The notes under the pieces: model-generated
Seen by the model: the letters and a program-made list of their open reading frames with translations, nothing else
What the model was told of the DNA's origin: nothing
Database searches by the model: none
In this document: positions 34,068-56,298 of the stretch, one piece after another
Numbering within the stretch: the stretch's first letter is position 1
Layout: the number at the start of each line of letters is the position of its first letter
Translations under genes and position numbers: made by a program
From: Metabacillus rhizolycopersici
GTDB taxonomy: Bacteria; Bacillota; Bacilli; Bacillales; Bacillaceae
Length of the DNA stretch: 64,000 nucleotides
Direction: 5' to 3'
Assembly: GCF_020075705.1 (NCBI RefSeq)
Contig: NZ_JAIQUM010000023.1
Span: 1 to 64,000 of the forward strand

Positions 34068-34095
34068 GAAGAAAAGTGGAAGGAGGCTATTGAAT

Positions 34096-35049
34096 ATGAA
34101 AACTGCTATTGGCATTGATATTGGGGGAACGAAAATAGCGATTGGCGTTGTACAAGAAGATGGGAAAGTCTTAGCAACAAATGAATTTCCGACCAGAGTA
34201 GAATATGGTCCAGACTATGCTACTGACTTGATTGTTTCGTGTGTAGAAGAATTCATGCAACAATTCCCAACGGTCACAGGAATCGGTATAGGTGCTCCGG
34301 GTCCTCTAGATTCGAAACAAGGAAAGGTACTAAATCCACCCAATTTAAAATCATGGCATGGCTATCCGTTAGCGCGAAGAATTGGGAGCGCTTTCCGAGT
34401 GCCGGTGAAAATGTTGAATGATGCAGATGCTGCAACATTTGGAGAGTATTTTTTTACATTTAGAGACACATATAAACACGTCCTCTATGTAACCGTCAGT
34501 ACTGGTGTTGGTGGGGGAATTATTATAAATAGTTCATTATATGAGGGTGCCTTATCTGGAGCTGGTGAAATTGGGCATAGTGTAGTACAGAGGGAAGGTC
34601 CTGTCTGTGGTTGCGGGAAACAGGGGTGTTTGGAGGCACTTGCGTCTGGGACTGCTTTGAACCGTATTTGGAAAGAAAGAATGGCAGCAGTAGGAAAACC
34701 AGTAGACCCAAATTGGAATAGTAAAGATCTCTTTGCTCACTTCGATAAAAATGATCCTATTGCCCAATCGGTTGTTGAGGAGGCTTCCACTCATTTAGCA
34801 TTGGGTCTCAGTCAAGTAATTCAAGCATTGAATCCTGAGTTGCTAATATTAGGTGGTGGTGTCATCATCGGACAGCCGTCATTTTATGAAATGGTTTATG
34901 AAAAACTACCAAGTTATCTTTTAGACCAACATAGCCAATTACTAACGATAGAAAAAGCTAGGCATGGTACATTGGCGGGAGTAATGGGAGCTGCGGCTAT
35001 TATCCTATCTAAGGATGAAGATATAGGAGGGAAACAAAATGGAATCTAA
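34096..35049 (+). CDS. ROK-family sugar kinase with zinc motif
   Basis: ATP-dependent hexose kinase of the ROK family, 317 residues. Phosphate-binding motif DIGGTK (8-13), catalytic Asp109 in LNDAD, and the ROK zinc site His161 with CGCGKQGC (171-178). Glucokinase is the closest named activity, but ROK kinases phosphorylate glucose, mannose, GlcNAc or ManNAc and sequence alone does not decide. It is the first gene of the glycan locus and overlaps the GH38 gene by 11 bases; a ROK gene precedes GH38 and GH125 in the same order in the pneumococcal N-glycan locus. I infer mannose or GlcNAc as substrate. ATG 34096 follows GGAGG. Confidence 0.9.
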   Translation: MKTAIGIDIGGTKIAIGVVQEDGKVLATNEFPTRVEYGPDYATDLIVSCVEEFMQQFPTVTGIGIGAPGPLDSKQGKVLNPPNLKSWHGYPLARRIGSAFRVPVKMLNDADAATFGEYFFTFRDTYKHVLYVTVSTGVGGGIIINSSLYEGALSGAGEIGHSVVQREGPVCGCGKQGCLEALASGTALNRIWKERMAAVGKPVDPNWNSKDLFAHFDKNDPIAQSVVEEASTHLALGLSQVIQALNPELLILGGGVIIGQPSFYEMVYEKLPSYLLDQHSQLLTIEKARHGTLAGVMGAAAIILSKDEDIGGKQNGI

Positions 35050-37756
35050 GACTACTGCGCATATTATTTCTCACTCCCACTGGGATCGGGAATGGTATAT
35101 GTCTTTTGAAAAACATCGTTACTACTTAGTAAAGTTAATGGATACACTAATCGATTTGTTTGAAAAGGGAGAAGATTTTCAGAGTTTTCACTTGGATGGA
35201 CAAACGATTATTTTAGAAGATTATTTCCAAATTCGTCCTGATAAAAAAGAAATAGTTAAGAAGTTAATACAAGAAAAAAAGCTTCATATTGGTCCTTGGT
35301 ATGTGTTACAAGACGCATTTTTAACAAGCTCTGAAGCGAATGTCAGAAATATGTTGTACGGTTTACAAGATGCGAAGGAATACGGTGCTGTGTCAAAGTT
35401 AGGGTACTTCCCGGATACATTTGGTATTTACGGACAAGCACCTCAATTGCTTCTGCAAGCTGATATTAAAACTGCTGCGTTTGGGAGAGGTGTAAAACCA
35501 ACAGGCTTTAATAATATGGTGAGCGATACGAAAACATTTGAATCGCCATATTCAGAACTTAAGTGGGAGTCGCCAGATGGTTCGGCGGTGCTTGGAGTAT
35601 TGTTTGCGAATTGGTATTCAAACGGCAATGAAGTACCTGTAGATAAAGAGAGTGCTAAAACGTATTGGGAAACAAAGCTAGCTGATGCTAAGAAATATTC
35701 TTCAACACCACATCTTCTTTTCATGAATGGGTGTGATCATCAACCAGTTCAAGTGGATATAGGTGAAGCAATCAAAGTGGCTGAAGAACTTTTCCCAGAT
35801 ACTACGTTTATACATTCTAGTTTTGATGAATATTTAGAAGCACTTCAGCACTCATTACCAGAACAACTCCAGACGGTAACAGGTGAATTGCGAAATCAAC
35901 TGACAGATGGGTGGTCAACGCTTGTAAATACAGCCTCTGCTCGCATTTATTTAAAGCAGATGAATCAAGAGAGTCAAACACTATTAGAAAAAGTGGCTGA
36001 GCCACTATCTGTGTTTTCATATTTACTTGGTCATGAATATCCACGTGATTATTTACGTTATGCATGGAAAACTTTGATGGAAAATCATCCACATGACAGT
36101 ATTTGCGGTTGTAGTGTAGATGAAGTACACCGAGAAATGGTAACCCGTTTTGAGAAGGTTCAGCAGACTGCAGAAACTATTATCGAGGAAAAAGCCAATG
36201 AAGTTGTATCTCATATTTCAACGAAACAAAGTGGTATTGATGAGGATATGATTCCAGTTGTCGTTTTTAACACATCAGGAAATACACGAGATGTGGTTAT
36301 CGAAAAGGAAGTTGAACTAGAAAAAGTCTATTTTTCAGAGATGCCTTTTTCAGAGATTCCAGATTTTCTTCGTTCGAAGGATTTACCTAGTATTCATTTG
36401 GTTGATAAGAATGGCACGGAACATGTCTGTAAAACAGAGGATCTTGGTATTCGGTTTGGATATGACCTACCTGAGGATGGTTTCCGACGTCCATATTATG
36501 CAAGAACGATCAAATTAACATTCCTAGCTGAATCTCTTCCGGGCTATGGGTATAAAACATATTATATTAAACTTGCCACGGAAACGAACTTGAATGAACA
36601 GCCATCGATTAATCGAGGTGCTCATGAAATGGAGAATGAATATGTCCATTTATTGATTCATGAAAATGGTTCGTATACATTGACTGACAAACAGACTGGG
36701 AAAACTTTTGAAGGTTTAGGAATCTATGAAAATAGCGGTGACATTGGTAACGAATATATGTTTAGAAAGCCGAATGGTGAAGTTCCACTTACTACGAAAG
36801 ATTTGAAGGCAGAGATAAGAGTAGTTGAAGACCATTCATTACGTTCCGTTATAGAACTTGTTCATGAGTGGGAGATTCCAAAAGAAGCCGATGAACAATT
36901 TCAACAAGAAAAGGAACGATTAGTTTGGCATAAGGACAGACAATCAGGTCGATCTTCTGAAAATGTAACCATTCGTTTAACTACACATATTCAGTTAGAT
37001 CAAAAAGCGAAGGGACCTTCTGTTAAGGTTACAATTGAAAACCAAGCAAAGGATCATCGTTTACGTGTTCTTTTCCCAACGAATTTAACTACGAATGAAC
37101 ACTACGCAGATAGTATTTTTGAAGTAGTAAAACGTCCTAATACTCCTGAAAGAGAGTGGGAGAATCCGAGCTTCGATCATCATCAACAGGCTTTTGTAAG
37201 TGTAACAGATGGTAAGCATGGGATGACAATTGCAAATAAAGGATTGCATGAGTATGAAATCCTTGAGGAACAACAAACAATCGCCGTTACGATTCTACGT
37301 TCAACTTCTGAGTTAGGGGATTGGGGTCTATTTCCGACACCAGAGGCTCAATGTATTGGAACGTACCAAGCAGAATGGATGGTTATCCCTCACGAGGGGA
37401 CTGTGGTTGAGTCAGAGGCGTTCAAAGAGGCGTATGACTTCCAAGTACCTGTGATTGCTGTACAAACAGATGTGCATGAGGGGATACTTCCAACCGAAAA
37501 GACATTTTTCACTTGGGAAGGTAAATCGTTAGCAATCTCTTCTATTAAATTAGCGGAGGAAAGAGATGATGTAATTGCTCGTTGGTTTAACACATCTGAA
37601 AAAGAAACAATGATAATTGCTCAACCAATGCAAGGTACAACTAGTTATAAGAGTACGATCATTGAGAGTGTGAAAGAGCAGTATGAAAATACGCAAATTC
37701 AAGAAAAAGTAAAACCATTTGAAATTATTAGCCTTGGATGGCAAGTGAAGGAGTGA
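35039..37756 (+). CDS. GH38 alpha-mannosidase (streptococcal SpGH38-like)
   Basis: Zinc-dependent retaining exo-alpha-mannosidase, 905 residues, no signal peptide, so cytoplasmic. Zinc/active-site residues His14 and Asp16 in SHSHWDREW, the nucleophile and ligand Asp126 in LGYFPDTFG, and a further His in NHPHDSICGC are all present. Length and motifs fit the group of Streptococcus pyogenes SpGH38, which prefers alpha-1,3-linked mannose. It overlaps the ROK gene and is followed after five bases by GH125, the same trio as in streptococci. Probable role: removing alpha-1,3 branches from imported N-glycan fragments. Confidence 0.93.
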   Translation: MESKTTAHIISHSHWDREWYMSFEKHRYYLVKLMDTLIDLFEKGEDFQSFHLDGQTIILEDYFQIRPDKKEIVKKLIQEKKLHIGPWYVLQDAFLTSSEANVRNMLYGLQDAKEYGAVSKLGYFPDTFGIYGQAPQLLLQADIKTAAFGRGVKPTGFNNMVSDTKTFESPYSELKWESPDGSAVLGVLFANWYSNGNEVPVDKESAKTYWETKLADAKKYSSTPHLLFMNGCDHQPVQVDIGEAIKVAEELFPDTTFIHSSFDEYLEALQHSLPEQLQTVTGELRNQLTDGWSTLVNTASARIYLKQMNQESQTLLEKVAEPLSVFSYLLGHEYPRDYLRYAWKTLMENHPHDSICGCSVDEVHREMVTRFEKVQQTAETIIEEKANEVVSHISTKQSGIDEDMIPVVVFNTSGNTRDVVIEKEVELEKVYFSEMPFSEIPDFLRSKDLPSIHLVDKNGTEHVCKTEDLGIRFGYDLPEDGFRRPYYARTIKLTFLAESLPGYGYKTYYIKLATETNLNEQPSINRGAHEMENEYVHLLIHENGSYTLTDKQTGKTFEGLGIYENSGDIGNEYMFRKPNGEVPLTTKDLKAEIRVVEDHSLRSVIELVHEWEIPKEADEQFQQEKERLVWHKDRQSGRSSENVTIRLTTHIQLDQKAKGPSVKVTIENQAKDHRLRVLFPTNLTTNEHYADSIFEVVKRPNTPEREWENPSFDHHQQAFVSVTDGKHGMTIANKGLHEYEILEEQQTIAVTILRSTSELGDWGLFPTPEAQCIGTYQAEWMVIPHEGTVVESEAFKEAYDFQVPVIAVQTDVHEGILPTEKTFFTWEGKSLAISSIKLAEERDDVIARWFNTSEKETMIIAQPMQGTTSYKSTIIESVKEQYENTQIQEKVKPFEIISLGWQVKE

Positions 37757-37761
37757 AGGTA

Positions 37762-39090
37762 ATGAACACTGAAACAACAATCCCACAATCATTATCACGT
37801 TTAATTGAAAAGGTGAAGGAGCATTTTCCTGAAGATAAAAAACTTCAGGAAATGTTTGAACAATGTTTTGTTAATACGTATGAAACAACATTAAAGCCAC
37901 AAGAGGATGGAACAACATTTGTTATTACAGGTGATATTCCAGCAATGTGGTTAAGAGATTCTGCTGCCCAAGTACGTCCATATCTACTTGCTGCTGAAGA
38001 AGACGAAGAAATGGCGAAACTAATTGAAGGTGTTGTCCGTCGTCAAATGAACTATATCGTTCATGACCCATATGCAAATGCTTTCAATGAAATCGCTAAT
38101 GGAAAAGGCCATCAAGAGGATAAAACGGATATGTCACCAATGACATGGGAACGTAAGTATGAAATTGACTCACTTTGCTATCCGATTCAACTTGCTTATC
38201 TTTTATGGAAGTCAACTGGAAGAACGTCCTACTTTGATGACACATTTATTAAAGCATTAAATCAGATTTTGCGTGTTTGGAAAGTAGAACAAAATCATGA
38301 GGATGAATCATCATATAGCTTTGAAAGAATGGATGTAAGACAATCAGATACTCTGAACAGAGATGGAAAAGGATCTAAAACTGCGAGAACAGGAATGACT
38401 TGGAGTGGATTTAGACCAAGTGATGATGCTTGTCTATATGGTTATTTAGTACCTGCAAATATGTTTGCGGTAGTAGTACTAGGTTATGCGTCAGAGATTT
38501 GTAAAGAAGTTTTAAAAGACGAAGGTCTTGCAAAGCAATGTGAGCAACTAGCTTCTGAGATAAAAGAAGGAATAGAAAAATTTGCAGTGTTAGATCATCC
38601 GATTTATGGAGATTTATATGTCTATGAAACAGATGGAATGGGTAGATGTAATCTTATGGATGATGCGAACGTTCCTAGTTTACTAGCAGCTCCATATCTT
38701 GGCTGGTGCCAATTTGATGATAAAACCTATCAGAATACTCGTAGCTTTTTATTAAGTAGGGATAATCCATACTTTTATGAAGGAAAAGTGGCCAATGGAA
38801 TTGGAAGTCCCCATACACCAGATCATTATATTTGGCATATTGCATTAGCAATTGAGGGGATGACATCTACAGATGCTTCTGATAAAAAGAGAATTTTGGA
38901 GATGATGAAGCAGTCAGATGGTGGAACTGGATTTATGCATGAGGGCTTTAATGCAGATCAACCAGAAGAATTTACGAGAGAGTGGTTCTCATGGGCAAAT
39001 TCGATGTTTAGTGAATTTGTATTAAGTTTATGTGGTTTTGCAGTTAAAGGTAGTCCGCTTTATAAAAAGCTACAAGAAAACAGCATCTAA
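37762..39090 (+). CDS. GH125 exo-alpha-1,6-mannosidase
   Basis: Metal-independent, inverting alpha-mannosidase family (formerly DUF1237) that removes non-reducing alpha-1,6-linked mannose. 442 residues, no signal peptide. Family signature GDIPAMWLRDSAAQVRPYL at 57-75, then NEIANGKGHQEDKTDM, TGMTWSGFRPSDD and MDDANVPSLLAAPYLGW. ATG 37762 follows AAGGAG at eight bases. Complements the neighbouring GH38 enzymes, which handle other linkages; the two genes are adjacent in streptococcal N-glycan loci as well. Confidence 0.95.
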   Translation: MNTETTIPQSLSRLIEKVKEHFPEDKKLQEMFEQCFVNTYETTLKPQEDGTTFVITGDIPAMWLRDSAAQVRPYLLAAEEDEEMAKLIEGVVRRQMNYIVHDPYANAFNEIANGKGHQEDKTDMSPMTWERKYEIDSLCYPIQLAYLLWKSTGRTSYFDDTFIKALNQILRVWKVEQNHEDESSYSFERMDVRQSDTLNRDGKGSKTARTGMTWSGFRPSDDACLYGYLVPANMFAVVVLGYASEICKEVLKDEGLAKQCEQLASEIKEGIEKFAVLDHPIYGDLYVYETDGMGRCNLMDDANVPSLLAAPYLGWCQFDDKTYQNTRSFLLSRDNPYFYEGKVANGIGSPHTPDHYIWHIALAIEGMTSTDASDKKRILEMMKQSDGGTGFMHEGFNADQPEEFTREWFSWANSMFSEFVLSLCGFAVKGSPLYKKLQENSI

Positions 39091-39165
39091 GTTAAGAAAC
39101 ATTACCGCATCTTGGTTGTTACAGAGGTTGGAGAAAATGATCTTAATAACAGGAGTGGAAATTTG

Positions 39166-41823
39166 TTGAAAATTAGATATGGTCTTATCACTGCGTTCTT
39201 AAGTTTGCTTATCGTTTGTGTACTTCCGATTACAGGTTTTGCAAAACAGCCGGAATCATCTTATTGGTATCCTGAAACATTATTAAAATGGAGTCCAAAA
39301 AGTGATCCTGACGCTGTATATAACAAAAGTACTGTGCCATTAGCTGATAGAGAAGTTGTTTTCAGTGTAAATGAAACGTCACAGTCAGAAGCAAAATTGG
39401 TTGCATTATCGGCATTAAATCCCAACACGAGTGGGGTTCCATCTCAAGGTGGAAATGAATTTTTTGCCAATACTTTTAGCTACTGGCAGTATGTTGATTT
39501 AATGGTGTATTGGGCAGGTTCTGCTGGAGAAGGAATTATTACTCCTCCAAGTGCTGATGTAATTGATGCTTCTCATAAAAATGGCGTTCCAATCTTAGGA
39601 AATGTTTTCTTTCCCCCAACAGCTTACGGGGGACAAGCACAATGGGTAGACCAAATGCTTGTACAGCGTGAGGATGGATCATTTCCTGCTGCTGACAAAC
39701 TGTTAGAGGTTGCTGAATATTACGGATTTGATGGCTGGTTTATCAACCAAGAAACAGCAGGTGGAAATAGAGAAACTGCTCAAAAAACAAAACAGTTTTT
39801 AAAATATCTTCAAGACAATAAGAAAAAAGACATGCACATTATGTGGTATGACTCAATGGTTGAAAGCGGAGCAATTAGTTGGCAAAATCACTTAACAGAT
39901 CGTAATAAAATGTTTTTACAAGATGGTAATGACAAAATTTCCGACAGTATGTTTTTAAATTTCTGGTGGACGAATCAACAGTCTTCTCATGATAAGGCAC
40001 TAGAAATTGGTAGAAGTCCATATGAACTATATACTGGCATTGATGTCGAGGCAAATGGAACGGACACAAACATTCCATGGAAAGGCATTTTCCCAGAAGG
40101 ACAAAAACCATTGACTTCATTAGGGATTTACCGTCCAGACTGGGCTTTTAAAACAACTGAAACAATGGAAGCATTCTATCAAAAAGAACAGGAATTCTGG
40201 ACTGGAAAAGCTGGAGATCCTCGCAAGACTGGTGAAAATGGAGACTGGAAAGGAATGGCTCACTATTTTGATACAAAAACGGCCATTCAGGAGCTTCCGT
40301 TTGTGACCCATTTTAATACAGGTAGTGGGAAATTCTTTGCAGTAGATGGTGCTATACAAAGTAAAGAAGAATGGAATAATCGTAGTTTACAAGATATTTT
40401 ACCTACATGGCGCTGGTTAAAGGATAGCGAAGGAGAGCCTCTAGATGTTGACTTCGATTGGGAGACAGCATTTTACGGTGGAAGTTCTTTGAAGGTTTCT
40501 GGAAATTTAACGAAAGAAAATGCGACACATGTGAAGCTTTATAAAACGAATCTACCAGTTGAAAAGGATACAGAGATCTCTGTAACTTACAAAACTGATG
40601 TGAAAGATCCTAATATGAAGCTTGGTGTAAGCTTTGTAGATCAGCCTGATGATTTTGTGTTTTTTGATGTTAAGAAAAAGAGCCGAAATCAATGGATGAA
40701 AGAAACAGTGAAATTAAACAAGTATAAGGGAAAACAAATTGCAACGATTTCTCTATTCTTCGAGAGTGATAAAGCAATTGAAGATTATCAAATCAACATT
40801 GGAGAAATTAAAGTTACAAATAAACATAGCGATAAAGAAATCCCAGATGTACCAAAGAAAGCTAATGTGAAAAATCCAATTTTCACAGAGGGGCTATATG
40901 CTGATTTAGAATTATCATGGAAGTCAGTGGAAGAAGATATTCTGCATTATGAGATTTATCGTAAACTTCCTAATGGAAAAAAGGAATTTATCGGAGCTGT
41001 TCCAAACAATGCGTACTACATCTCTAACTTACGAAGAAGCGGTAAGGAAAAAGAAACTTCTCTAGAAGTTGTAGCTGTAACGACTGATTTTGTTCGAGGC
41101 GGAGCTGCGAAGGTAATGTTTAAATGGCCTGCGTACCCACAACCAAAGGCAGACTTTAGTGTAAATCAAACAGTTGTAGCACCAGGTGAAAAGATCCAAT
41201 TTTTCAACAATTCATCTGAAGCGACAGAGAAAGTTCAATGGCAAATTGAAGGTGGTACACCGACAGTAAGTACGGAGAATAATCCAATTGTCACGTATGA
41301 AGAAGAAGGAATATACTCAGTTACCCTAATCGCTAAAAATAGCGAGGGAGAGGATGTTCTTACAAAAGAAGGCTTTATTACAGTTTCAAAGGATGCAAAA
41401 AACATTACGAATGTTGCACAGAACAAAACCGCAACTGCTAGTGGACAATGCTCTTCATCTGAAGGAGCAAAGTACGCGATTGATGGAATCGTGACGAATA
41501 ATAGTAAATGGTGTGCCATTGGTGCAAATCATTGGTTAAAAGTCGATTTAGGTGAGGCATTTAATCTATCAAAATTTGTTGTCAAACATGCTGAAGCAGG
41601 CGGCGAGCCAGCAGCCTTTAATACGAAGGCATTCACGATTGAGGTAAGTCTTGATGGTGAGAATTGGACGAAAGCCGTGAATGTCACAAATAATACAGCT
41701 GCTATCTCAGAACATCCCATTACAACGACAGAAGCTCAATATATTCGCTTTTCTGTCCAACAACCAACGCAAGGTGGGGACCAAGCAACTAGAATATTTG
41801 AAGTCGAAGCATATGGATATTAA
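39166..41823 (+). CDS. secreted GH85 endo-beta-N-acetylglucosaminidase
   Basis: Cuts the GlcNAc-beta-1,4-GlcNAc core of N-linked glycans, freeing the oligosaccharide and leaving one GlcNAc on the protein. 885 residues from TTG 39166, which follows AGGAGTGG at seven bases. Residues 1-27 form a signal peptide (ending near TGFA). The GH85 barrel spans about 30-330, with the family motif GFDGWFINQET; Asn194 and Glu196 match the catalytic Asn/Glu pair of Endo-A. Middle beta domains follow, then a PKD-like domain (about 658-745) and a C-terminal F5/8-type (CBM32-like) sugar-binding domain (746-885, NVAQNKTATASG ... YIRFSVQ). No LPXTG or other anchor, so it is probably released. It shares a unit with ROK-GH38-GH125. 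Confidence 0.93.
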   Translation: MKIRYGLITAFLSLLIVCVLPITGFAKQPESSYWYPETLLKWSPKSDPDAVYNKSTVPLADREVVFSVNETSQSEAKLVALSALNPNTSGVPSQGGNEFFANTFSYWQYVDLMVYWAGSAGEGIITPPSADVIDASHKNGVPILGNVFFPPTAYGGQAQWVDQMLVQREDGSFPAADKLLEVAEYYGFDGWFINQETAGGNRETAQKTKQFLKYLQDNKKKDMHIMWYDSMVESGAISWQNHLTDRNKMFLQDGNDKISDSMFLNFWWTNQQSSHDKALEIGRSPYELYTGIDVEANGTDTNIPWKGIFPEGQKPLTSLGIYRPDWAFKTTETMEAFYQKEQEFWTGKAGDPRKTGENGDWKGMAHYFDTKTAIQELPFVTHFNTGSGKFFAVDGAIQSKEEWNNRSLQDILPTWRWLKDSEGEPLDVDFDWETAFYGGSSLKVSGNLTKENATHVKLYKTNLPVEKDTEISVTYKTDVKDPNMKLGVSFVDQPDDFVFFDVKKKSRNQWMKETVKLNKYKGKQIATISLFFESDKAIEDYQINIGEIKVTNKHSDKEIPDVPKKANVKNPIFTEGLYADLELSWKSVEEDILHYEIYRKLPNGKKEFIGAVPNNAYYISNLRRSGKEKETSLEVVAVTTDFVRGGAAKVMFKWPAYPQPKADFSVNQTVVAPGEKIQFFNNSSEATEKVQWQIEGGTPTVSTENNPIVTYEEEGIYSVTLIAKNSEGEDVLTKEGFITVSKDAKNITNVAQNKTATASGQCSSSEGAKYAIDGIVTNNSKWCAIGANHWLKVDLGEAFNLSKFVVKHAEAGGEPAAFNTKAFTIEVSLDGENWTKAVNVTNNTAAISEHPITTTEAQYIRFSVQQPTQGGDQATRIFEVEAYGY

Positions 41824-41840
41824 GCAGTAGTAGAATCGGG

Positions 41841-41863
41841 AAGGGGATTTTATCCCCTTTTCT
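41841..41863 (+). terminator. Rho-independent terminator after GH85
   Basis: AAGGGGAT-TTT-ATCCCCTT followed by TTCTT; small but well formed. Confidence 0.7.
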
Positions 41864-41889
41864 TACCAAAATAATTGGGGATGAAAAAC

Positions 41890-42534: not shown

Positions 42535-42554
42535 TATACGAATGGGGGATTTAT

Positions 42555-45689: not shown

Positions 45690-45712
45690 TCTTTTATAAA
45701 CTATATATCCCT

Positions 45713-45747
45713 CTGTTGGGAAGTGAATTAACTTCACTTTCCAACAG
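45713..45747 (+). terminator. strong hairpin after the second GH38
   Basis: CTGTTGGGAAGTGAA/TTCACTTTCCAACAG, 15-bp stem with one G-T pair and a five-base loop. Followed by AAAATA rather than T, so it may be an mRNA-end or partial terminator. Confidence 0.6.
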
Positions 45748-45801
45748 AAAATATAGTAGAATAGTGGTTGAGTTAGTAGTCTGCATGGGAGGATAGAAGG
45801 A

Positions 45802-47625: not shown

Positions 47626-49126
47626 CGTATTTTTAGTAGATGATGAACCATTTATTATTGAAGGTATGAAAGCGCTGGTACCATGGGAAGATTATGGACT
47701 TAAAGTTGTTGGCGAAGCTTCTAATGGTAGTGAAGCTCTTAAAAAGTTAGAAACGTGCCATGTTGATATAGTATTAACTGATATAACGATGCCTATAATG
47801 GATGGATTAGAGTTAATTGGTACATTGAAAGAACGTCAACCTAATACAAAATGTATCGTTTTATCTGGATACGAAGAATTTGACTATGTGAAAAAAGGAA
47901 TGAAGCTAGGAATTGAAAATTATCTATTAAAACCAGTCAATGAGCAAGAACTCATTTCAACATTGGAAAATAGTGTTGAGAAAATTGAGAAATCTACAAA
48001 TGATGAAGAAGCGTATACTATTTTAAGAGATAATACAATTTGGCGAAGCCTGAATCAAGACATCGATGCAAAAGAATGGCGTGAAAGAGTAGAGTTATAC
48101 AGTTTGGAGTTTGATAGCCAGAAGCTAGCTGTTGTTTTAATGCAAATATCAAGTGAGATAGAACATGAAAACATTTCCTTTTTCCGAAGAAGAGTAGAGG
48201 AGTTATTTCAGTCTGTCTGTATTATTAATCCAGATGGCGAACTTATCCTTTTAGTTTCGTCTAATTGTGAAGATGACTTTAAGAAAAAACTAGATGAATT
48301 GAATGTGCTTTTTGCTGGATATGTTTCTGGAAAGTATCATATTAGTGTTGGATCATCTGTTTGCTCCACAAATGAATTGTATAAGAGCTACCAACGTGCT
48401 AAAGAGTTATCTAGCTTTCGATTAGTAGTTAAAGAAAGTGGACTCATAACAGATGAATTAACAAAGCAGTATATGCAAGCAAGTCTGTCTACTTCGTATA
48501 AATTGGATGATCTAAAGAGATATATTGTTGGTTCAGAACAAGAAAAGGCTTTTTTGTGGATCAAAGATTCCTTTGCTGAGATTAATAAATCTACTAAAAA
48601 GGTTGCTCCAACTAGGATTAGAGGGTTTGCTATTGAAATTGTTACGTCTATCCAAAAAGAAGTATTGTCACATGCCAATGATCAAACAGTTGGTATTGTG
48701 AAACGAATCTTAGAGGCGTATTCAATTGAACTTTTAGTGGATATTCTTATTGATTTTATTGAAGGAACTTTTAGAGCATTAGAGCAAAAATCTGAGCAGA
48801 GAAGTCCGATTATTCACAGTGTTGTGCAATATATTCAAGAACATTTTCATGAAGAACTCTCTTTGAAAACATTAAGCTATAAATTTCATATAAATTCGAT
48901 TTACTTAGGCCAACTATTCCAGAAAGAAACTGGCTTAGTATTCTCTGAGTACATGAATCATTTAAGACTCGAAAAAGCAAAACAATTGTTGAAAGAGACA
49001 CACTTAAAGGCTGGAGTAATTGGAAAACAAGTGGGTTATTCGGATTCGGCTTATTTTTATAAACAGTTTAAGAAGGTTGTGGGGATTACTCCCTCGGCTT
49101 GGAAAGCAATGAATATCAATTCTTGA
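47618..49126 (+). CDS. YesN-type response regulator with AraC DNA-binding domain
   Basis: 502 residues: receiver domain at 1-120 with acidic Asp8/Asp9 and phospho-acceptor Asp55 (VLTDITMPIMDG), Lys in YLLKPVNE; a long middle region; and a C-terminal AraC double helix-turn-helix (about 400-500: LSYKFHINSIYLGQLFQKET, VGYSDSAYFYKQFKKVVGIT). Partner of the overlapping kinase. It would activate the importer genes starting 200 bases downstream, whose promoter has a -10 but no good -35, as expected for an activator-dependent promoter. Confidence 0.93.
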   Translation: MYNVFLVDDEPFIIEGMKALVPWEDYGLKVVGEASNGSEALKKLETCHVDIVLTDITMPIMDGLELIGTLKERQPNTKCIVLSGYEEFDYVKKGMKLGIENYLLKPVNEQELISTLENSVEKIEKSTNDEEAYTILRDNTIWRSLNQDIDAKEWRERVELYSLEFDSQKLAVVLMQISSEIEHENISFFRRRVEELFQSVCIINPDGELILLVSSNCEDDFKKKLDELNVLFAGYVSGKYHISVGSSVCSTNELYKSYQRAKELSSFRLVVKESGLITDELTKQYMQASLSTSYKLDDLKRYIVGSEQEKAFLWIKDSFAEINKSTKKVAPTRIRGFAIEIVTSIQKEVLSHANDQTVGIVKRILEAYSIELLVDILIDFIEGTFRALEQKSEQRSPIIHSVVQYIQEHFHEELSLKTLSYKFHINSIYLGQLFQKETGLVFSEYMNHLRLEKAKQLLKETHLKAGVIGKQVGYSDSAYFYKQFKKVVGITPSAWKAMNINS

Positions 49127-49127
49127 T

Positions 49128-49148
49128 ATCCCGTTATTCGGGATTTTT
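49128..49148 (+). terminator. Rho-independent terminator of the two-component genes
   Basis: ATCCCG-TTATT-CGGGAT followed by TTTTTC, starting two bases after the stop. Confidence 0.85.
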
Positions 49149-49285
49149 TCTGTTTTAGAGGTGAGTCTTTAAGCCCGAAAGAATCAACATAATGATAAAA
49201 AAGGCTATATTTACGATCGAATATTTAATAAGTACAGTAAATCTTAATATTGTTGACTTTATACATTTTCCATTTTTTCTTAAAC

Positions 49286-49291
49286 TATAGT
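49286..49291 (+). promoter_or_regulatory. candidate -10 element of the ABC importer operon
   Basis: TATAGT about 35 bases before the first permease gene; no -35 hexamer at 16-18 bases. This fits activation by the AraC-type regulator encoded just upstream, which is an inference. Confidence 0.35.
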
Positions 49292-49326
49292 TGTAAGGGT
49301 TTTCAAATTGAGAGAGGGGGGTCTGT

Positions 49327-50268
49327 ATGAGTCGTATCAAGAGTTTTTTCCAAGATGTTTATAAAAATCGTATGTGGCTATTCATGGTTCTACCGGGAAC
49401 CATTTGGCTATTGTTATTTGCATATCTTCCTATGTTTGGAACTGTCATTGCCTTTAAAAATTTTCGATATGATCCGAATGGATTTTTTGCAAGTATCCTA
49501 AATAGTGATTGGGTTGGCTTTGAAAACTTCAAGTTTTTATTTACTACAAATGACGCCTGGATCATTACAAGAAATACGATTCTTTATAATTTAGTCTTTA
49601 TTGTTTTAGGGCTTATATTAGCAGTGTTTGTAGCAATTGTTCTAAGTGAGCTGGCAAATAAGAGACTGTCAAAAATTTATCAAACAGGAATGCTGTTTCC
49701 ACACTTTTTATCATGGGTTGTTGTTAGTTATTTCGTATTCACGTTCCTAAGCGTGGATAGAGGTCTGGTTAATAATATACTCGTATGGTTTGGCGTAGAA
49801 GACCCGATATCGTGGTATAACGAAGCGAAATATTGGCCTTTTATTATCGTTCTAACAAGTATGTGGAAGGGTATTGGTTATGGAAGTATTGTTTATTTAG
49901 CTGCCATAGTTGGGATTGATAAAAACTATTACGAAGCTGCTATGATCGATGGTGCAAATAAGTGGCAACAAATCCGTAATATTACGATTCCGATGATAAC
50001 ACCGCTGATTGTTATTTTAACGATTTTAAACATTGGTAGAATTTTTAGTGCAGACTTTGGTCTGTTTTATCAAGTTCCTCGTGATTCCGGTACGTTATAT
50101 TCAGTAACAAACGTTATAGATACGTATGTATACAGAGGGTTAACGACAATGGGGGACATTAGTATGAGTACTGCAGCTGGTCTTTACCAATCAGTTGTTG
50201 GGTTTACATTAGTCATGCTGACAAATTACCTTGTTAAGAAGGTTGAGAAAGAATATGCCCTATTTTAA
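49327..50268 (+). CDS. ABC sugar importer permease, LplB-type
   Basis: Inner-membrane permease, 313 residues, six predicted membrane spans, of the LplB/YteP group of the CUT1 oligosaccharide importers. The EAA loop that contacts the ATPase is EAAMIDGANKWQQIRNITIP. N-terminal segment MWLFMVLPGTIWLLLFAYLP is typical. ATG 49327 follows GAGAGGGGGG. First gene of an importer-GH1-ROK unit. No ATPase is encoded nearby. Confidence 0.93.
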   Translation: MSRIKSFFQDVYKNRMWLFMVLPGTIWLLLFAYLPMFGTVIAFKNFRYDPNGFFASILNSDWVGFENFKFLFTTNDAWIITRNTILYNLVFIVLGLILAVFVAIVLSELANKRLSKIYQTGMLFPHFLSWVVVSYFVFTFLSVDRGLVNNILVWFGVEDPISWYNEAKYWPFIIVLTSMWKGIGYGSIVYLAAIVGIDKNYYEAAMIDGANKWQQIRNITIPMITPLIVILTILNIGRIFSADFGLFYQVPRDSGTLYSVTNVIDTYVYRGLTTMGDISMSTAAGLYQSVVGFTLVMLTNYLVKKVEKEYALF

Positions 50269-50301
50269 AAAATTGAGAGTGAAAGGAGGGCGTCCACAGT
50301 T

Positions 50302-51330
50302 TTGTGGCAAATGACAATGATACCAAATCCAAAAAGCTCCCAACCTACTCCTTTAAACAAAGTGAATGTGCAAAAACAAGTGAATCAACCGAACCAACCG
50401 AACCAACCGAACAAAAAAAGTAAACGTAAGAAAAAGTACACACCTCATGGTCTAACGGGGTTTCCTAATGTTTTGATGAATATTTTGTTAGGATCGTTTT
50501 CTATCATGTGTGTCTTTCCATTTCTATATGTAATCGTCATCTCTTTAACGGATGAGAAAACATTAGCGCGAAATGGATATCAGATTATACCTGAAGTTTG
50601 GAGTTTAGAAGCATATCGATACTTGTGGCAAATGAAGGATCAATTACTTCAATCTTATACGATTACGATTTTTGTAACTGTACTTGGAACACTCTTCAGT
50701 GTAGTAATGATTGCTTTATATGCCTATGCTATTTCTAGAAAGCAATTTAAATACCGCGGTTTCTTTACTTTTATGGCATTCTTTACCATGCTTTTTAGTG
50801 GAGGGTTAATTCCTTTCTATATAGTAGCAACACAGTTTTTACATTTACGTAACTCTATTTGGGCATTGATATTACCACTTGCAATGAACGCATTCTATAT
50901 CTTAATTATGAGAACCTTTTTCCAAAGGTCTGTACCTGAATCCATTTTGGAATCGGCTAGAATTGATGGAGCAAGTGAATTACGAATCTTTGTCCAAATG
51001 GTTGTTCCACTTTCATTACCAGGTCTTGCAACCATTGCCCTTTTTAGTACATTGGGTTACTGGAATGATTGGTTTAATGCACTGTTGTTCATTGATGAAC
51101 CGCACTTGGTGCCGCTGCAGTCAATGTTGATGAAAATTGAAAACAACATAGAATTTTTAACGCAAAATTCGTTAGCAGGCGGTATACAAAATGATTTATT
51201 AAGTGCAATACCTCAAGATGCTGCAAAAATGGCAATGGTTGTTATTTCAACTTTGCCGATAGCGATTGCATATCCAATTTTCCAGAAATACTTTGTTAGT
51301 GGATTGACAATTGGTGGCGTTAAGGAATAA
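50302..51330 (+). CDS. ABC sugar importer permease, LplC/YtcP-type
   Basis: Second permease of the heterodimer, 342 residues. The EAA loop is ESARIDGASELRIFVQMVVP, and the C-terminus QKYFVSGLTIGGVKE is typical of this group. The start is probably TTG 50302, 11 bases after AAAGGAGGG; ATG 50311 is the alternative. An unusual N-terminal extension of about 45 residues is basic and contains a (NQP)3 repeat encoded by a 9-base tandem repeat (about 50384-50413); the first membrane span starts only near residue 55. Confidence 0.92.
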   Translation: MWQMTMIPNPKSSQPTPLNKVNVQKQVNQPNQPNQPNKKSKRKKKYTPHGLTGFPNVLMNILLGSFSIMCVFPFLYVIVISLTDEKTLARNGYQIIPEVWSLEAYRYLWQMKDQLLQSYTITIFVTVLGTLFSVVMIALYAYAISRKQFKYRGFFTFMAFFTMLFSGGLIPFYIVATQFLHLRNSIWALILPLAMNAFYILIMRTFFQRSVPESILESARIDGASELRIFVQMVVPLSLPGLATIALFSTLGYWNDWFNALLFIDEPHLVPLQSMLMKIENNIEFLTQNSLAGGIQNDLLSAIPQDAAKMAMVVISTLPIAIAYPIFQKYFVSGLTIGGVKE

Positions 51331-51369
51331 ATGTTTTTTGAAATAGATAAATAAAAGGGAGGTTTTACA

Positions 51370-52821
51370 ATGAATAAGAAGCTGGCAATTTTTCTAGTAC
51401 TATTGTTAAGTTTATCTACCTTTTTATCTGCATGTAGTGGTGGGAAAGCGGATAAAACGAGTGGTAAAGCTGATGGAGATAAACCATATGAAATTACTTG
51501 GTACACAATTGGGACACCTCAAAAAGATGTTGATAAAGTAATGAAAGAAGTAAATAAATACACGAAAGAGAAAATTAACGCAACTGTTAAAATGAGACAA
51601 ATTGACTGGGGCGATTATGATCAAAAAATGCAAGTTATGATTGCTTCAGGTGAATCTTTTGATATTGCTTATACTCAAGGTGGAAACTATGTGTTAAATG
51701 CACAAAAGGGAGCATTTAAAGACTTAAATGACCTTCTTGATACACATGGAAAAGAATTAAAAGCAGCACTTGATCCAGCATTCATAGAAGGTGCAAAAAT
51801 TGATGGAAAGCTTTACGGTATTCCTTCTAACAAAGAAGTAGGTCAGCAAAGTGTGTACGTATTTAATAAAAATATCGTTGATAAATACAATATGGATATT
51901 TCAAGCGTTAAATCGTTAGAAGATTTAAAGCCATTATTGCAAACAGTGAAAGAAAATGAGCCAGACTTCACACCGATTGCAACTTTTAAACCACATTTAC
52001 CATTTGATTACGTATTAGAAGATGAATTGCCGTTTGCATTTCCTTTAGAAGGAGATACAAGTAAGGTAATTAATATCTTTGAATCAGATGAAATGATGAA
52101 AACGTTGAAAACAATGCATGAATTCTATAAAGCTGGTTATATCAAAGCAGATGCAGCAACAAGTACAGATCCATGGCCGTTAGAAGTACAAAACTGGTTC
52201 GTACGTAAAGAGATGTATCAGCCATATGCGGAATTAATCTGGTCTCGTTCAGCAGGTTATGATGTAGCGGTTCAACCAATGCATGATCCGATTACATTTA
52301 ACAACTCTGTAACAGGGGCGATCCAAGCAATCTCAGCAACTTCAAAAAATCCAGAGAAAGCTATGGAGTTCTTAAATCTATTGAATACAGATCCATATCT
52401 TCGTAACTTAATTGATAGAGGCATTGAAGGTGTACATTACGAAGAGGTTGATAACGGTACAATTAAAGACCTTCCAGCTCGTGTAGATAACTACAACATG
52501 CCAAGTTTCTCTCTAGGAAATCATTTCATTCTTAAGCTATATGAAAATGATCCTCAAGATAAATGGGAAGTGTTCAAAAAATTCAATGATGCTTCTGTAA
52601 AAGCACCAACAGTAGGTTTCTATTTTGATACGAATCCAGTTCGTACAGAAATCGCAGCAATTTCAAACGTTGCAAGTGAATTCGCACCTCCTCTCTTAAC
52701 TGGTAGTGTTGACCCTGAGGTATATCTACCAAAAGCAAATAAGAAGTTTAAAGAAGCAGGATTAGATAAAGTGCTTGAAGAAATGCAAAAACAATATGAT
52801 GAGTGGAAGAAAAACAACTAA
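51370..52821 (+). CDS. ABC sugar importer binding lipoprotein, LplA-type
   Basis: Extracellular solute-binding lipoprotein of 483 residues that delivers oligosaccharide to the adjacent permeases. Lipoprotein signal with lipobox LSAC, lipidated Cys22. The mature part is a two-lobed binding-protein fold of the LplA/YtcQ group with WYTIGTPQKDVDKVMKEVNK near the start and a DUF3502-like C-terminus. ATG 51370 follows GGGAGG. A hairpin follows the gene, probably giving this subunit more mRNA than the downstream genes. Confidence 0.93.
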   Translation: MNKKLAIFLVLLLSLSTFLSACSGGKADKTSGKADGDKPYEITWYTIGTPQKDVDKVMKEVNKYTKEKINATVKMRQIDWGDYDQKMQVMIASGESFDIAYTQGGNYVLNAQKGAFKDLNDLLDTHGKELKAALDPAFIEGAKIDGKLYGIPSNKEVGQQSVYVFNKNIVDKYNMDISSVKSLEDLKPLLQTVKENEPDFTPIATFKPHLPFDYVLEDELPFAFPLEGDTSKVINIFESDEMMKTLKTMHEFYKAGYIKADAATSTDPWPLEVQNWFVRKEMYQPYAELIWSRSAGYDVAVQPMHDPITFNNSVTGAIQAISATSKNPEKAMEFLNLLNTDPYLRNLIDRGIEGVHYEEVDNGTIKDLPARVDNYNMPSFSLGNHFILKLYENDPQDKWEVFKKFNDASVKAPTVGFYFDTNPVRTEIAAISNVASEFAPPLLTGSVDPEVYLPKANKKFKEAGLDKVLEEMQKQYDEWKKNN

Positions 52822-52849
52822 TAGATTCAATCAATTAACAAAGGAGGTA

Positions 52850-52886
52850 AAGTCGGAAATCTATTTTTCCGACTTGCTTTCTTTTT
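52850..52886 (+). terminator. hairpin between binding protein and GH1
   Basis: AAGTCGGAAA/TTTCCGACTT perfect stem, then GCTTTCTTTTT. Probably a partial terminator or mRNA-stabilising element. An AAAGGAGG just before it (52840-52847) has no reading frame after it. Confidence 0.65.
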
Positions 52887-52906
52887 AAGGAAAGGCAGGG
52901 TTAAAA

Positions 52907-54313
52907 ATGAGTACAGAAATAGAAAAGAATAAATACGTGTTTCCTAAAGACTTCTGGTGGGGATCTGCTTCATCTGCAACACAAATGGAAGGGTTTTCGG
53001 GAGCGGATGGTAAAGGGCAGAATATATGGGACTACTGGTATGAAGCAGAACCGAATCGTTTTTATCAAGGGATTGGACCTGATAACACTTCACTGTTTTA
53101 TACGAAATTTGTTGAAGATATTTTGCTCATGAAAGAAACGGGCCATAACAGTTTTCGCTTTTCTATCTCATGGTCCCGCATGTTTCCAAAGGGGCGTGGA
53201 GAAGTAAATCAGAAGGCGATTGACTTTTATAATACCATCATTAACACCTTACTAGAAAATGAGATAGAGCCTTTTGTGAATCTCTATCATTTTGACATGC
53301 CTATGGCTATGCAAGAAGAGGGTGGTTGGGAAAGTCGCTCTGTCGTTGATGCGTATGTGGAATATGCTTCTACTTGCTTTGAGAATTTTGGAGATCGAGT
53401 CATGAAATGGTTCACACATAATGAGCCAATCGTACCTGTAGAATGCGGTTATTTATATGGACATCATTATCCAGCACTTTGTGATTTTGAAAAAGCTGTT
53501 CAAGTTGCGTTCCATTCTGTATTAGCCTCTGCGAAAGCAATTAAGGCATACCATGATAAAGAGCTTGGAGGAAAAATTGGAATTATATTGAATGTTACTC
53601 CATCTTATCCAAGGAGTAATCACCCTGCTGACTTAGCTGCTGCTGAAAAAGCGGATTTGCTATTTAACCGTTCCTTTCTAGATCCATCAGTCAAAGGCAC
53701 GTTTCCTGAGAAGCTAATTGACATGTTGCGGGAAGAAAACTTTTTACCGAAGTATGAAGCTGAAGATTTGGATATTATCCGTGAAAATACAGTTGATCTA
53801 TTAGGGATTAATTACTATCAACCACGAAGAGTTAAGGCAAAGGAAAATATGCCAAATCCGAATGCTCCGTTCATGCCAGAACGATACTTTGATCATTATG
53901 ACATGCCAGGGAAAAAGGTGAATCCATACAGAGGTTGGGAGATTTATGAAAAGGGTGTCTACGATATTTTAAAAAACATCCAAGAAAACTATGGGAATAT
54001 TGAATGCTTCATTTCGGAAAATGGTATGGGAGTTGAATCAGAAGAACGCTTTAAGGATGCGAACGGAATGATTCAAGATGATTATCGAATTACCTTTTAC
54101 GAAGATCATTTAAAGTGGATCCATAAAGCATTAAACGAAGGTGCCAATGTAAAAGGATATCATGTATGGACCTTCATGGATAACTGGTCCTGGTTAAACA
54201 GCTATAAAAATCGGTATGGTTTGATTTCAGTAGACTTACAGAATGACTATAAGCGAACGATTAAGAAAAGTGGTTATTGGTTCAAGAAGTTAGTGGAAAG
54301 TAATGGGTTTTAG
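52907..54313 (+). CDS. GH1 family beta-glycosidase
   Basis: Cytosolic retaining beta-glycosidase, 468 residues, no signal peptide. N-terminal GH1 signature FPKDFWWGSASSATQMEG; acid/base Glu173 in WFTHNEP; nucleophile Glu371 in FISENGMG; C-terminal WTFMDNWSWLNSYKNRYG. GH1 covers beta-glucosidases, galactosidases, mannosidases and 6-phospho enzymes. The end motif is not the clear 6-phospho-binding type. In this locus the bond left after the alpha-mannosidases would be Man-beta-1,4-GlcNAc, so a beta-mannosidase-like activity is a reasonable but unproved idea; the streptococcal N-glycan locus with SpGH38 also has a GH1 gene. ATG 52907. Confidence 0.9.
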   Translation: MSTEIEKNKYVFPKDFWWGSASSATQMEGFSGADGKGQNIWDYWYEAEPNRFYQGIGPDNTSLFYTKFVEDILLMKETGHNSFRFSISWSRMFPKGRGEVNQKAIDFYNTIINTLLENEIEPFVNLYHFDMPMAMQEEGGWESRSVVDAYVEYASTCFENFGDRVMKWFTHNEPIVPVECGYLYGHHYPALCDFEKAVQVAFHSVLASAKAIKAYHDKELGGKIGIILNVTPSYPRSNHPADLAAAEKADLLFNRSFLDPSVKGTFPEKLIDMLREENFLPKYEAEDLDIIRENTVDLLGINYYQPRRVKAKENMPNPNAPFMPERYFDHYDMPGKKVNPYRGWEIYEKGVYDILKNIQENYGNIECFISENGMGVESEERFKDANGMIQDDYRITFYEDHLKWIHKALNEGANVKGYHVWTFMDNWSWLNSYKNRYGLISVDLQNDYKRTIKKSGYWFKKLVESNGF

Positions 54314-54329
54314 AAAAGAGGAGTATGTG

Positions 54330-55214
54330 ATGAAAAGGTATCTAGTCTATGACGTTGGCGGAACATCAGTAAAATATTCAGTTATGGATGAACATGCTAA
54401 TGTTTTAGAGAGCTCTTCAAGCCCCACACCACCACAAGGAGAAGGGCAAATATTTAGATTTATCATTGATACAACGACAAAGTATAAAAACAAATGGGAG
54501 CTTAATGGAGTTGCATTAAGTGTACCAGGTGCTGTTGATGTAAAAAGTGGTTATGTTCATTATGCTGGTCAAGTAACTGATTTTATTGGAAGAAGTATCA
54601 AGGAAGAACTAGCTGATATTGGCTTACCAATTGAGCTAGAAAATGATGCGAATTGTGCAACTTTAGCCGAGAAGTGGAAAGGAAATGCACAAGAATGTAA
54701 TAGTTTCATATGTGTGACAATAGGAACTGGTATAGGTGGAGGAATATTCTTAGACGGGAAATTGAGACGTGGAAAAAAGGGAATGGCTGGTGAAGTTGGA
54801 CTCATGATCATGAATTCAACCGAATCATTAGATACTCTTGTTGAAACGAGTACGTTTAGTAGATTAGGATCCACTTGGAATTTACTTAATCGAGTATTTC
54901 TTAAAACAGGTGAAGAACTGACCGGTGAAGAATTATTCGATCACTATCATAAAAAAGATAATTGCGTACAAGGTGAAGTAGAAGCATTTTTTGATGCAAT
55001 TGCAATAGGAACTGCTAATTTAATACATACATTAGCACCAGAAAAAGTTTTGTATGGTGGTGGAATAAGTGAGCAATCAGGATTCACAAATCATATCAAC
55101 GAACGTCTAAAGAAAATTCGTCCAGAAATCGTTGAAATGACTGAGATTGATGTATGTAAATTTAAAAATCTTGCAGGGCAAATCGGTGCACTCTATCACT
55201 TTCATAATTGTTAA
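54330..55214 (+). CDS. ROK-family kinase lacking the zinc motif
   Basis: 294-residue ROK protein with YDVGGTSVKYSV at the N-terminus, catalytic Asp106 in ENDAN and TIGTGIGGGIF. The Cys-rich CxCGxxGC site of typical ROK kinases, present in the protein at 34096, is absent; that region reads MAGEVGLMIMNSTES. Zinc-free ROK members include beta-glucoside kinase (BglK), so this one may act on a disaccharide or on a different monosaccharide from its paralogue. No DNA-binding domain, so not a repressor. ATG 54330 follows GGAG; the GH1 stop is 16 bases before. Confidence 0.88.
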   Translation: MKRYLVYDVGGTSVKYSVMDEHANVLESSSSPTPPQGEGQIFRFIIDTTTKYKNKWELNGVALSVPGAVDVKSGYVHYAGQVTDFIGRSIKEELADIGLPIELENDANCATLAEKWKGNAQECNSFICVTIGTGIGGGIFLDGKLRRGKKGMAGEVGLMIMNSTESLDTLVETSTFSRLGSTWNLLNRVFLKTGEELTGEELFDHYHKKDNCVQGEVEAFFDAIAIGTANLIHTLAPEKVLYGGGISEQSGFTNHINERLKKIRPEIVEMTEIDVCKFKNLAGQIGALYHFHNC

Positions 55215-55350: not shown

Positions 55351-56298
55351 TTGAAGCAACCGATATTTTTACTTCCAGTTTTTCAAGAAAGAATTTGGGG
55401 GGGAGAAAAGCTTAAAACAGAATTTCATTATGATATCGAGTCTAATTTGACTGGGGAGTGTTGGGCAGTATCTGCACATCCTAATGGTCAAAGTACAGTA
55501 AGTGATGGTCCTATTAAAGGGAAGACACTTGAGAGACTTTGGTCAGAAAATCGAGAACTATTCGGGAGTCTCGAAGGTGAAGTATTTCCGTTACTGACAA
55601 AGATTTTAGATGCAAATAATGACCTTTCTGTTCAAGTACATCCTAATGATGAATATGCCAATAAAAATGAAAATGGAGAACTTGGTAAAACAGAATGCTG
55701 GTATGTGATTAACTGTGAAGAAAATGCTGAAATAATCTTTGGGCATAATGCAATTTCAACAGAGCAGTTTGTTGAGATGATTAATAACAACGAATGGAAT
55801 GACCTACTGCATCGTATAAAAGTAAAACCAGGTGATTTTTTCTATGTACCAAGTGGAACAATCCATGCATTATGCTCGGGCGTTCTTATATTAGAGACGC
55901 AGCAGAGCTCAGACACAACATATCGTGTATATGATTATGACCGTGTTGACCAACAAGGTAACAAGAGAGACTTACATATTAAAAAGTCAATCGATGTTAC
56001 AACTATACCACATAGGAATATTTCTGTAAAACCTATTACAGAAGAAATGACTGGTGGTACGATTACAACATTCATTCAGAGTGAGTATTTCTCTGTCTAC
56101 AAATGGGATATCAAGACAGCTGCTACTTTTACGCAAGATAAACCATTTTTAATAGGAAGTGTTATATCTGGAACTGGTGAAATCGTGACAGACGAGGGTA
56201 GCTATTCATTCGAGAAGGGAAGTCATTTTATTTTACCAAGTGGTTTAGGAGAATTTCACATAGAAGGGTCAGCGGAAATGATTATCTCTCATCCGTAA
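55351..56298 (+). CDS. manA: mannose-6-phosphate isomerase, class I
   Basis: Zinc enzyme converting mannose-6-phosphate to fructose-6-phosphate, 315 residues of the short Bacillus type. N-terminal IFLLPVFQERIWGG, zinc-binding VQVHPND and KTECWYV, and PSGTIHALCSGVLILETQQS are typical. Start TTG 55351 after GGGAGTG. It is the last gene of the glycan locus with its own terminator. It completes the route from mannose, via a ROK kinase, to glycolysis and is a strong pointer to mannose as the main product of the locus. Confidence 0.95.
   Translation: MKQPIFLLPVFQERIWGGEKLKTEFHYDIESNLTGECWAVSAHPNGQSTVSDGPIKGKTLERLWSENRELFGSLEGEVFPLLTKILDANNDLSVQVHPNDEYANKNENGELGKTECWYVINCEENAEIIFGHNAISTEQFVEMINNNEWNDLLHRIKVKPGDFFYVPSGTIHALCSGVLILETQQSSDTTYRVYDYDRVDQQGNKRDLHIKKSIDVTTIPHRNISVKPITEEMTGGTITTFIQSEYFSVYKWDIKTAATFTQDKPFLIGSVISGTGEIVTDEGSYSFEKGSHFILPSGLGEFHIEGSAEMIISHP

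Follow-up and report, generated by a model that had tools for sequence, protein, structure and literature searches.

Gene content of the locus

The stretch of DNA considered here, 64,000 nucleotides from Metabacillus rhizolycopersici (contig NZ_JAIQUM010000023.1, positions 1 to 64,000; hereafter the window), holds at 34096–56298 a predicted operon for the use of high-mannose N-glycans, made up of 14 consecutive plus-strand genes which run, in the list of open reading frames (ORFs), from the ATG of the sugar kinase ROK1 to the end of the mannose-6-phosphate isomerase ManA. All 14 were identified by Pfam matches above the curated cut-offs, and all 14 reading frames are intact. A sequence-only reading had placed here, contiguously, a GH85 enzyme, two GH38 enzymes, a GH125, a GH1, two ROK kinases, ManA, a YesM/YesN pair and an importer, and Pfam confirmed each of them; the start it gave was equally sound, since the ATG at 34096, with AAGGAGG just upstream, is the better start for ROK1. 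The gene set, the nearest characterised relatives, the catalytic residues and the transfer described below can be read from the DNA itself, while all activities are predicted from them.

Release of the glycan would fall to the GH85 endo-beta-N-acetylglucosaminidase (39112–41823; Pfam GH85 298 bits), which also carries PKD and F5/8 C domains. Its probable start lies near 39163, giving 886 aa, the length of several close homologues, and a signal peptide was judged by eye. The nearest solved structures are 3fha, 3fhq and 2vtf (703 bits), with the pneumococcal EndoD structures 3gdb and 2w91 reaching only 358–366 bits. 3fha and 3fhq are structures of Endo-A (PMC2646837). All six Endo-A residues checked, in the numbering of the same paper, are kept at a constant offset of 41: N171, E173 and Y205, described as catalytic, W216 and W244, described as gate-keepers, and Y299 correspond to N212, E214, Y246, W257, W285 and Y340 of the window enzyme.

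Uptake would depend on an LplB/NgtP-type permease (49327–50268), an LplC/NgtP-type permease (50302–51330), both with the Pfam BPD domain, and an NgtS-type solute-binding lipoprotein, or SBP (51370–52821; SBP and DUF3502 domains, lipobox LSAC by eye). Both permeases have homologues in genomes that we call streptococcus-like, 55–59% identical in the case of the first; this label and that of Paenibacillus-type are inferred groupings, drawn from GH85 frame length and gene order among other traits. The nearest solved relatives of the SBP are 5swa/5swb (E 4.3e-101 for 5swa), 5mlt and 5suo. Of these, 5SUO, 5SWA and 5SWB are reported as NgtS, with Man1GlcNAc and Man5GlcNAc as the ligands in 5SWA and 5SWB, while 5mlt is not named there (PMC5215778). 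The case for N-glycan uptake therefore has more behind it than family membership. With NgtS numbering inferred from the streptococcus-like homologues, Trp81 corresponds to W80, at a position where 48 of 49 aligned rows have Trp, whereas for Trp386, here F380, only 6 of 49 do. Pfam found no ABC ATPase among the 14 genes, and the importer likely uses a shared MsmX/MsmK-type ATPase encoded elsewhere, MsmX presumably being a candidate of this kind. In the case of the NgtS system, MsmK has been suggested (PMC5215778).

Three alpha-mannosidases are predicted. GH38a (35039–37756) has SpGH38 as its top solved relative (2wyh, E 4.7e-261), and GH125 (37738–39090; Pfam 544 bits), a predicted exo-alpha-1,6-mannosidase, is nearest to 2nvp, 5m7i and 3qt3 (CpGH125), then to 3qpf (SpGH125). 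GH38b (42555–45689) finds Ams1 chains as its top solved relatives (E 5.5e-152); enzymes of this type presumably have a broad linkage range, and GH38b probably removes alpha-1,2-mannose inside the cell. The sugars set free would be handled by ROK1 (34096–35049; Pfam ROK 257 bits, zinc motif CGCGKQGCLE), which resembles glucokinases and N-acetylmannosamine kinases in both NCBIfam and its nearest solved relatives and probably phosphorylates free mannose and/or N-acetylglucosamine (GlcNAc), and by ManA (55351–56298; Pfam PMI catalytic and cupin domains), which scores 285.6 bits against the TIGR00218 cut-off of 116.2. Control is expected from a YesM-type sensor kinase (45802–47625; HAMP, His_kinase, HATPase) and a YesN-type response regulator (47618–49126; receiver, AraC helix-turn-helix).

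Between SBP and ManA lie the GH1 gene (52907–54313; Pfam 470 bits), a proposed 6-phospho-beta-mannosidase, and ROK2 (54303–55214), a BglK-like kinase proposed to act on Man-beta-1,4-GlcNAc; their ORFs overlap by 11 bases. A DUF624 membrane protein (41875–42534; Pfam) was added to the earlier account, as were the block transfer and the role of GH1 and ROK2 in filling a gap of the known pathway. The DUF624 gene occurs in 31 of the 80 GH85 loci described below, scores 33.9 bits with the NCBIfam model MusI_fam (cut-off 160) and is perhaps an importer accessory, judging from its sequence. Scans of the locus for sigma-70 promoters and terminators gave no more sites than shuffled sequence; the candidate terminators at 49128–49144 and 52850–52875 are weak, shuffles giving as many.

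Taken together, the Endo-A-like GH85 residues, the NgtS-like SBP and the SpGH38, CpGH125 and SpGH125 relatives support the use of high-mannose N-glycans proposed by the sequence-only reading, and we hold it very probable, on these sequence relationships, that the locus serves N-glycan release, import and alpha-trimming. The supporting arguments from gene order and host association did not stand. The order ROK-GH38-GH125, said to match the pneumococcal locus, is read there in the reverse direction of transcription and with a different ROK class (ROK2-like, not ROK1): the window has ROK1-GH38-GH125, streptococcus-like loci run gh125-gh38-ROK, and for the pneumococcal operon the order given is gh125-gh38-ROK-gh20 (PMC7075642).

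Transfer and distribution of the gene set

A block from 33737 to 56300, proposed as the transferred unit, is common to the window and a genome here called G001 at 89–93% DNA identity (93.5% up to 41861 and 89.3% beyond), the alignment stopping two bases past ManA. In Peribacillus butanolivorans, 34812–54311 aligns at 90–91% and 33885–34404 at 82%, together with part of ManA at 72%; the 3' end differs, GH1 being followed by a ROK1-like kinase, another ROK2-class kinase and a different ManA. The flanks (his operon, trxB, yvcJ, yvcK, whiA and neighbours) show only about 66–78% DNA identity to these two genomes, short aligned pieces left aside. The his regions of G001 and P. butanolivorans are themselves 72–77% identical, and the two are read as separate genera since these regions differ as much as the window flanks do. 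The G001 record is titled Paenibacillus sp. FJAT-29882, and both its locus and its his region are close to Bacillaceae ones; the name may be wrong. GH85 pointed to a Peribacillus as the source of the window, a reading set aside on account of HisD: the HisD encoded just upstream of the locus is 100% identical, over 99% of its length, to a protein named Metabacillus litoralis, others so named reaching 91–92%.

The operon is flanked by hisIE and a TPR gene (edges 33175–33736 and 56301–56867). In nine of nine relatives the matches to these two genes lie on one contig about 0.2–2.1 kb apart, as against 23.7 kb in the window; the TPR proteins share only 42–48% identity and are equated partly from where they lie. 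A comparison of the edge segments 33175–34060 and 56299–56900 found no exact repeat of 11–20 bases, direct or inverted, that both contain. The simplest reading of these alignments is that the operon moved between lineages as one block.

The distribution of the gene set was followed from GH85. A scan of species genomes with a 19-sequence GH85 alignment gave 337 stretches, of which 80 were kept, mostly from named Bacillaceae genera and Paenibacillus. Among 398 evenly drawn genomes of the class, 66 passed the GH85 cut-off and only 46 reached E <= 3.2e-28, the remaining matches being weak and partial. Two samples of GH85 genomes were taken, the first of 40 hand-picked from the 80 loci and the second of 26 of the 46 (the 20 left out include the small genomes G398 and G416), and were compared with 20 genomes, those listed of more than 320, without GH85. 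GH125 was present in 39 of 40 and 26 of 26 GH85 genomes and in 1 of the 20 without GH85, and an SBP match with E <= 1e-60 in 38 of 40 and 26 of 26. GH85, GH38, GH125 and an NgtS-type SBP recur jointly across genera. The search for the same gene set, suggested with the sequence-only reading, thus found relatives across soil Bacillaceae and another form in Paenibacillus-type genomes. Taken by itself, the gene set is nothing unusual in Bacillaceae, and its assignment to host-associated bacteria fails: the predominance of Bacillaceae genera and Paenibacillus among the 80 GH85 loci rules out host association as a hallmark. A second GH85 frame, 32–35% identical to that of the window, was seen in six loci, mostly from Neobacillus (L007, L011, L013, L015, L016 and L018).

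The core disaccharide step

The model of glycan trimming in pneumococcus ends at ManGlcNAc, with ScrK suggested for mannose, and the TCS07 regulon includes BglA3 (listed as a 'glycosyl hydrolase family protein'), a ROK and ManA (PMC7075642). The fate of Man1GlcNAc is left unexplained, with no beta-1,4-mannosidase candidate identified in Streptococcus pneumoniae (PMC5215778). In the window, the beta-linkage of Man-beta-1,4-GlcNAc is the only one remaining after GH85 and the alpha-mannosidases, and GH1 therefore most simply acts on this disaccharide. On the sequence evidence that follows, we favour, with some confidence, a step in which ROK2 would phosphorylate Man-beta-1,4-GlcNAc and GH1, as a phospho-beta-mannosidase, would split the product.

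The nearest solved relatives of GH1 are 4b3k and 5foo, of which 5foo bears the name 6-phospho-beta-D-glycosidase, and we take both to be S. pyogenes SPy1599. In 6-phospho-beta-glycosidases a phosphate site of the form Ser...Lys...Tyr replaces the Glu of beta-glucosidases. GH1 has Ser at the position of this Glu, keeps the Tyr and carries the Lys, as do 4b3k and 5foo, one position before that of the homologues in L101 and L108. Its motif, WSW.N.YKNRYG, is accompanied by the conserved E173 and E371, and the form WSW.N.Y(K/R)NRYG is found in 34 of 34 aligned rows of at least 50% identity (33 distinct genes; R only once). Among eight distant GH1 rows, six have the beta-glucosidase Glu and two the usual 6-phospho form, with the Lys one place later. 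Spy1599 has been counted among the described 6-phospho-beta-glucosidases (PMC10360150). Regarding the kinase, the nearest solved relative of ROK2 is the beta-glucoside kinase 4htl, and as in the 4htl alignment the zinc motif CxCGxxGCxE is missing. Over the ROKs of the loci, this motif occurs in none of the 23 that match ROK2 better and in 7 of the 18 that match ROK1 better, while GEFGY is present in 17 of the 23. Although not filed as a BglK, ROK2 may work like one, to judge from these likenesses.

The two genes commonly lie close together. All 10 of the 80 GH85 loci that show GH1 also have a ROK2-class gene. In 35 genomes with a close GH1, using the GH1 copy nearest GH125, a ROK2 match (E <= 1e-30) was found within 1 kb of GH1 in 28 and within 100 bp in 21; in 31 of the 35 this GH1 is on the contig of GH125, at no more than 22.1 kb. 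GH1 (at least 50% identity) is present in 13 of 13 streptococcus-like GH85 genomes, at 55–59%, against 3 of the 20 without GH85 (Fisher p about 1e-6, kinship ignored), and four further small GH85 genomes have it at 51–53%; in one GH85 genome, G385, neither a close GH1 (best 38%) nor GH130 was found. We infer that the GH1 of the streptococcus-like genomes is BglA3, which we take to be a GH1 enzyme. Eight GH125 neighbourhoods were fetched, six of them from the 13 streptococcus-like genomes. A ROK was present in seven, matching ROK2 only in five (123–127 bits) and ROK2 better in two, and none was seen in the eighth, L139; a ROK2-class kinase thus stands in six of six fetched streptococcus-like GH38/GH125 loci. 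In one of these, L133, the best NCBIfam model of the ROK is BglK, below its cut-off; the same locus has a GH92.

By contrast, this GH1 is missing in eight of eight Paenibacillus-type genomes (at most 39% identity), and GH130 is present in all eight, in two of them only 124 and 168 bp from a GH125. Across 56 genomes (the whole second sample of 26 and 30 members of the first), a strong GH130 was found in 9 of 14 genomes without GH1 against 5 of 42 with GH1 (p 3e-4, kinship ignored); G037 was scored as lacking GH1, though its locus L054 has a 50% match. GH1 and GH130 may be two unrelated solutions for one step, as far as sequence goes. The GH130 genes adjoining GH125 lie at L156:15783–16784 and L157:10524–11510. 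In L157, a GH18 gene (11690–12814) stands beside GH130, GH125 and GH38, and might act as a second endoglycosidase.

Several observations weigh against this picture. GH1 falls below all NCBIfam cut-offs, its top model being the plain beta-glucosidase TIGR03356 (426.2 against 478.5) and its best 6-phospho model PRK13511 (366.5 against 610), and its phosphate-site Lys is off the usual 6-phospho motif by one position. The best model of ROK2, BglK, reaches 184.3 against a cut-off of 550. The zinc motif is also missing from 11 of the 18 ROK1-better rows and is not peculiar to ROK2, so that it separates the ROK2 class from the window ROK1, but not from ROKs generally. Seven of the 35 genomes lack a ROK2 match within 1 kb of GH1, having none on the contig or only one further off. 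A strong GH130 also occurs in 5 of the 42 genomes with GH1, 5 of the 14 without GH1 have neither, and in NCBIfam GH130 comes closest to models of beta-1,2-mannobiose enzymes. Furthermore, the co-occurrence counts ignore kinship, and those of the SBP cover GH85 genomes only. Catabolite-responsive element (cre) sites, sought with a consensus, gave 0 matches against 1.5 expected by chance. Large products of an Endo-A-type enzyme may fit poorly into an NgtS-like site, which is said to leave no room for alpha-1,2-mannose on one of the arms (PMC5215778). Since the locus has no GH92, alpha-1,2-mannose would have to be removed intracellularly, and the SBP must therefore accept glycans larger than NgtS seems to.

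The same genes can be explained otherwise. GH1 could be a conventional beta-mannosidase whose substrate is free Man-beta-1,4-GlcNAc, with the two ROKs phosphorylating the freed mannose and GlcNAc; the top rank of TIGR03356 agrees with this, ROK substrates vary, and two kinases would suit two freed sugars. This explanation appears rather unlikely to us, since Ser replaces the beta-glucosidase Glu in a signature shared with the nearest 6-phospho-glycosidase relative, and the top solved relative of ROK2 is a beta-glucoside kinase.

A larger departure would be a locus for some other glycan rich in mannose, for instance fragments of fungal alpha-mannan or side products of plant glucomannan, with GH85 incidental and GH1-ROK-ManA as a gmu-like glucomannan cassette. 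These three genes do resemble gmuD, gmuE and gmuF of the B. subtilis gmu cassette. GH125 has been found in fungal mannan loci too (PMC10154615). Nevertheless, we rate it very improbable: the characterised GH85 enzymes are stated to act on no substrates but N-glycans (PMC10154615), the SBP groups with NgtS, GH85, GH38, GH125 and the SBP stand together again in several genera, and no GH26, GH76 or phosphotransferase system gene was found among the 14 by Pfam. As for a recently transferred block that this host leaves silent or is losing to decay, the transfer between lineages is clear, but the intact frames and the kept catalytic residues of GH85 and GH1 make such a state scarcely probable.

Proposed pathway and comparison with known systems

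In the pathway proposed, with ROK2 and GH1 as a kinase and phospho-beta-mannosidase pair, the secreted GH85 would cut between the two core GlcNAc residues, and the ManxGlcNAc freed would be taken up by the NgtS-type SBP and the two permeases. GH38b, GH38a and GH125 would then strip the alpha-mannoses down to Man-beta-1,4-GlcNAc, ROK1 phosphorylating the free mannose. ROK2 would add phosphate at O6 of the non-reducing mannose of the disaccharide, GH1 would split the product into mannose-6-phosphate (Man-6-P) and GlcNAc, and ManA would convert Man-6-P into fructose-6-phosphate, the operon being switched on by YesM/YesN. As a whole, a complete, horizontally transferred high-mannose N-glycan operon that includes the ROK2/GH1 step is the reading to which we incline.

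The system belongs to a known type and has a composition of its own. It has in common with the S. pneumoniae pathway (EndoD, NgtS-P1-P2, the CPL locus SP_2141-2146 and TCS07) a GH85, an NgtS-type importer, GH38 and GH125, a ROK, a ManA in the regulon and two-component control. It differs from it in being one contiguous operon with GH1 and its kinase adjoining, in lacking GH92, GH20 and GH29 among its 14 genes (Pfam), in its additional Ams1-type GH38 and zinc-type ROK1, and in a GH85 closer to Endo-A than to EndoD. The GH85 locus of Halalkalibacterium halodurans (L025) has a GH85 64% identical and with the same domains, which is presumably Endo-BH, and adjoining it a ROK2-class kinase, DUF624 and GH38; in the draft genome of strain DSM 497, GH38a is present as two overlapping frames, GH125 is split over contigs and GH1 is on another contig. 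The Paenibacillus-type locus L156 (genome G326) has ten ORFs of at least 180 aa, namely GH85, a GH38 on the opposite strand, sensor kinase, response regulator, two permeases, SBP, GH125, GH130 and a second GH38. It therefore shares with the window GH85, both GH38 types, GH125, the NgtS-type SBP, two permeases and the two-component pair, but has the GH130 phosphorylase and, among these ten ORFs, neither GH1 nor ROK. The S. pyogenes operon of SpGH38 (Spy1604) shares GH38, GH1, a sugar transporter and two-component genes; it contains GH84, and GH85 and GH125 are not mentioned in the passages on it (PMC2815779).

Among the matches listed in open-licence PMC titles and abstracts, no proposal was found of a phospho-beta-mannosidase or a disaccharide kinase in N-glycan breakdown, nor of a kinase and GH1 route for the N-glycan loci of Bacillus or Bacillaceae. 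The more general proposition, that N-glycan-eating Firmicutes finish the core disaccharide with a BglK-type ROK and GH1, filling the pneumococcal gap, that Paenibacillus-type genomes use GH130 instead and that the Bacillaceae operon travels between genera, seems to us evenly balanced.

Such gene sets are common in soil Bacillaceae, are no specialty of host-associated bacteria and spread as a unit. With every step gathered in a single operon, this free-living relative provides two testable candidate genes for the Man-beta-1,4-GlcNAc step and, if the proposal is true, a pair of the ROK2 and GH1 type supplies the enzyme that is missing from the pneumococcal model.

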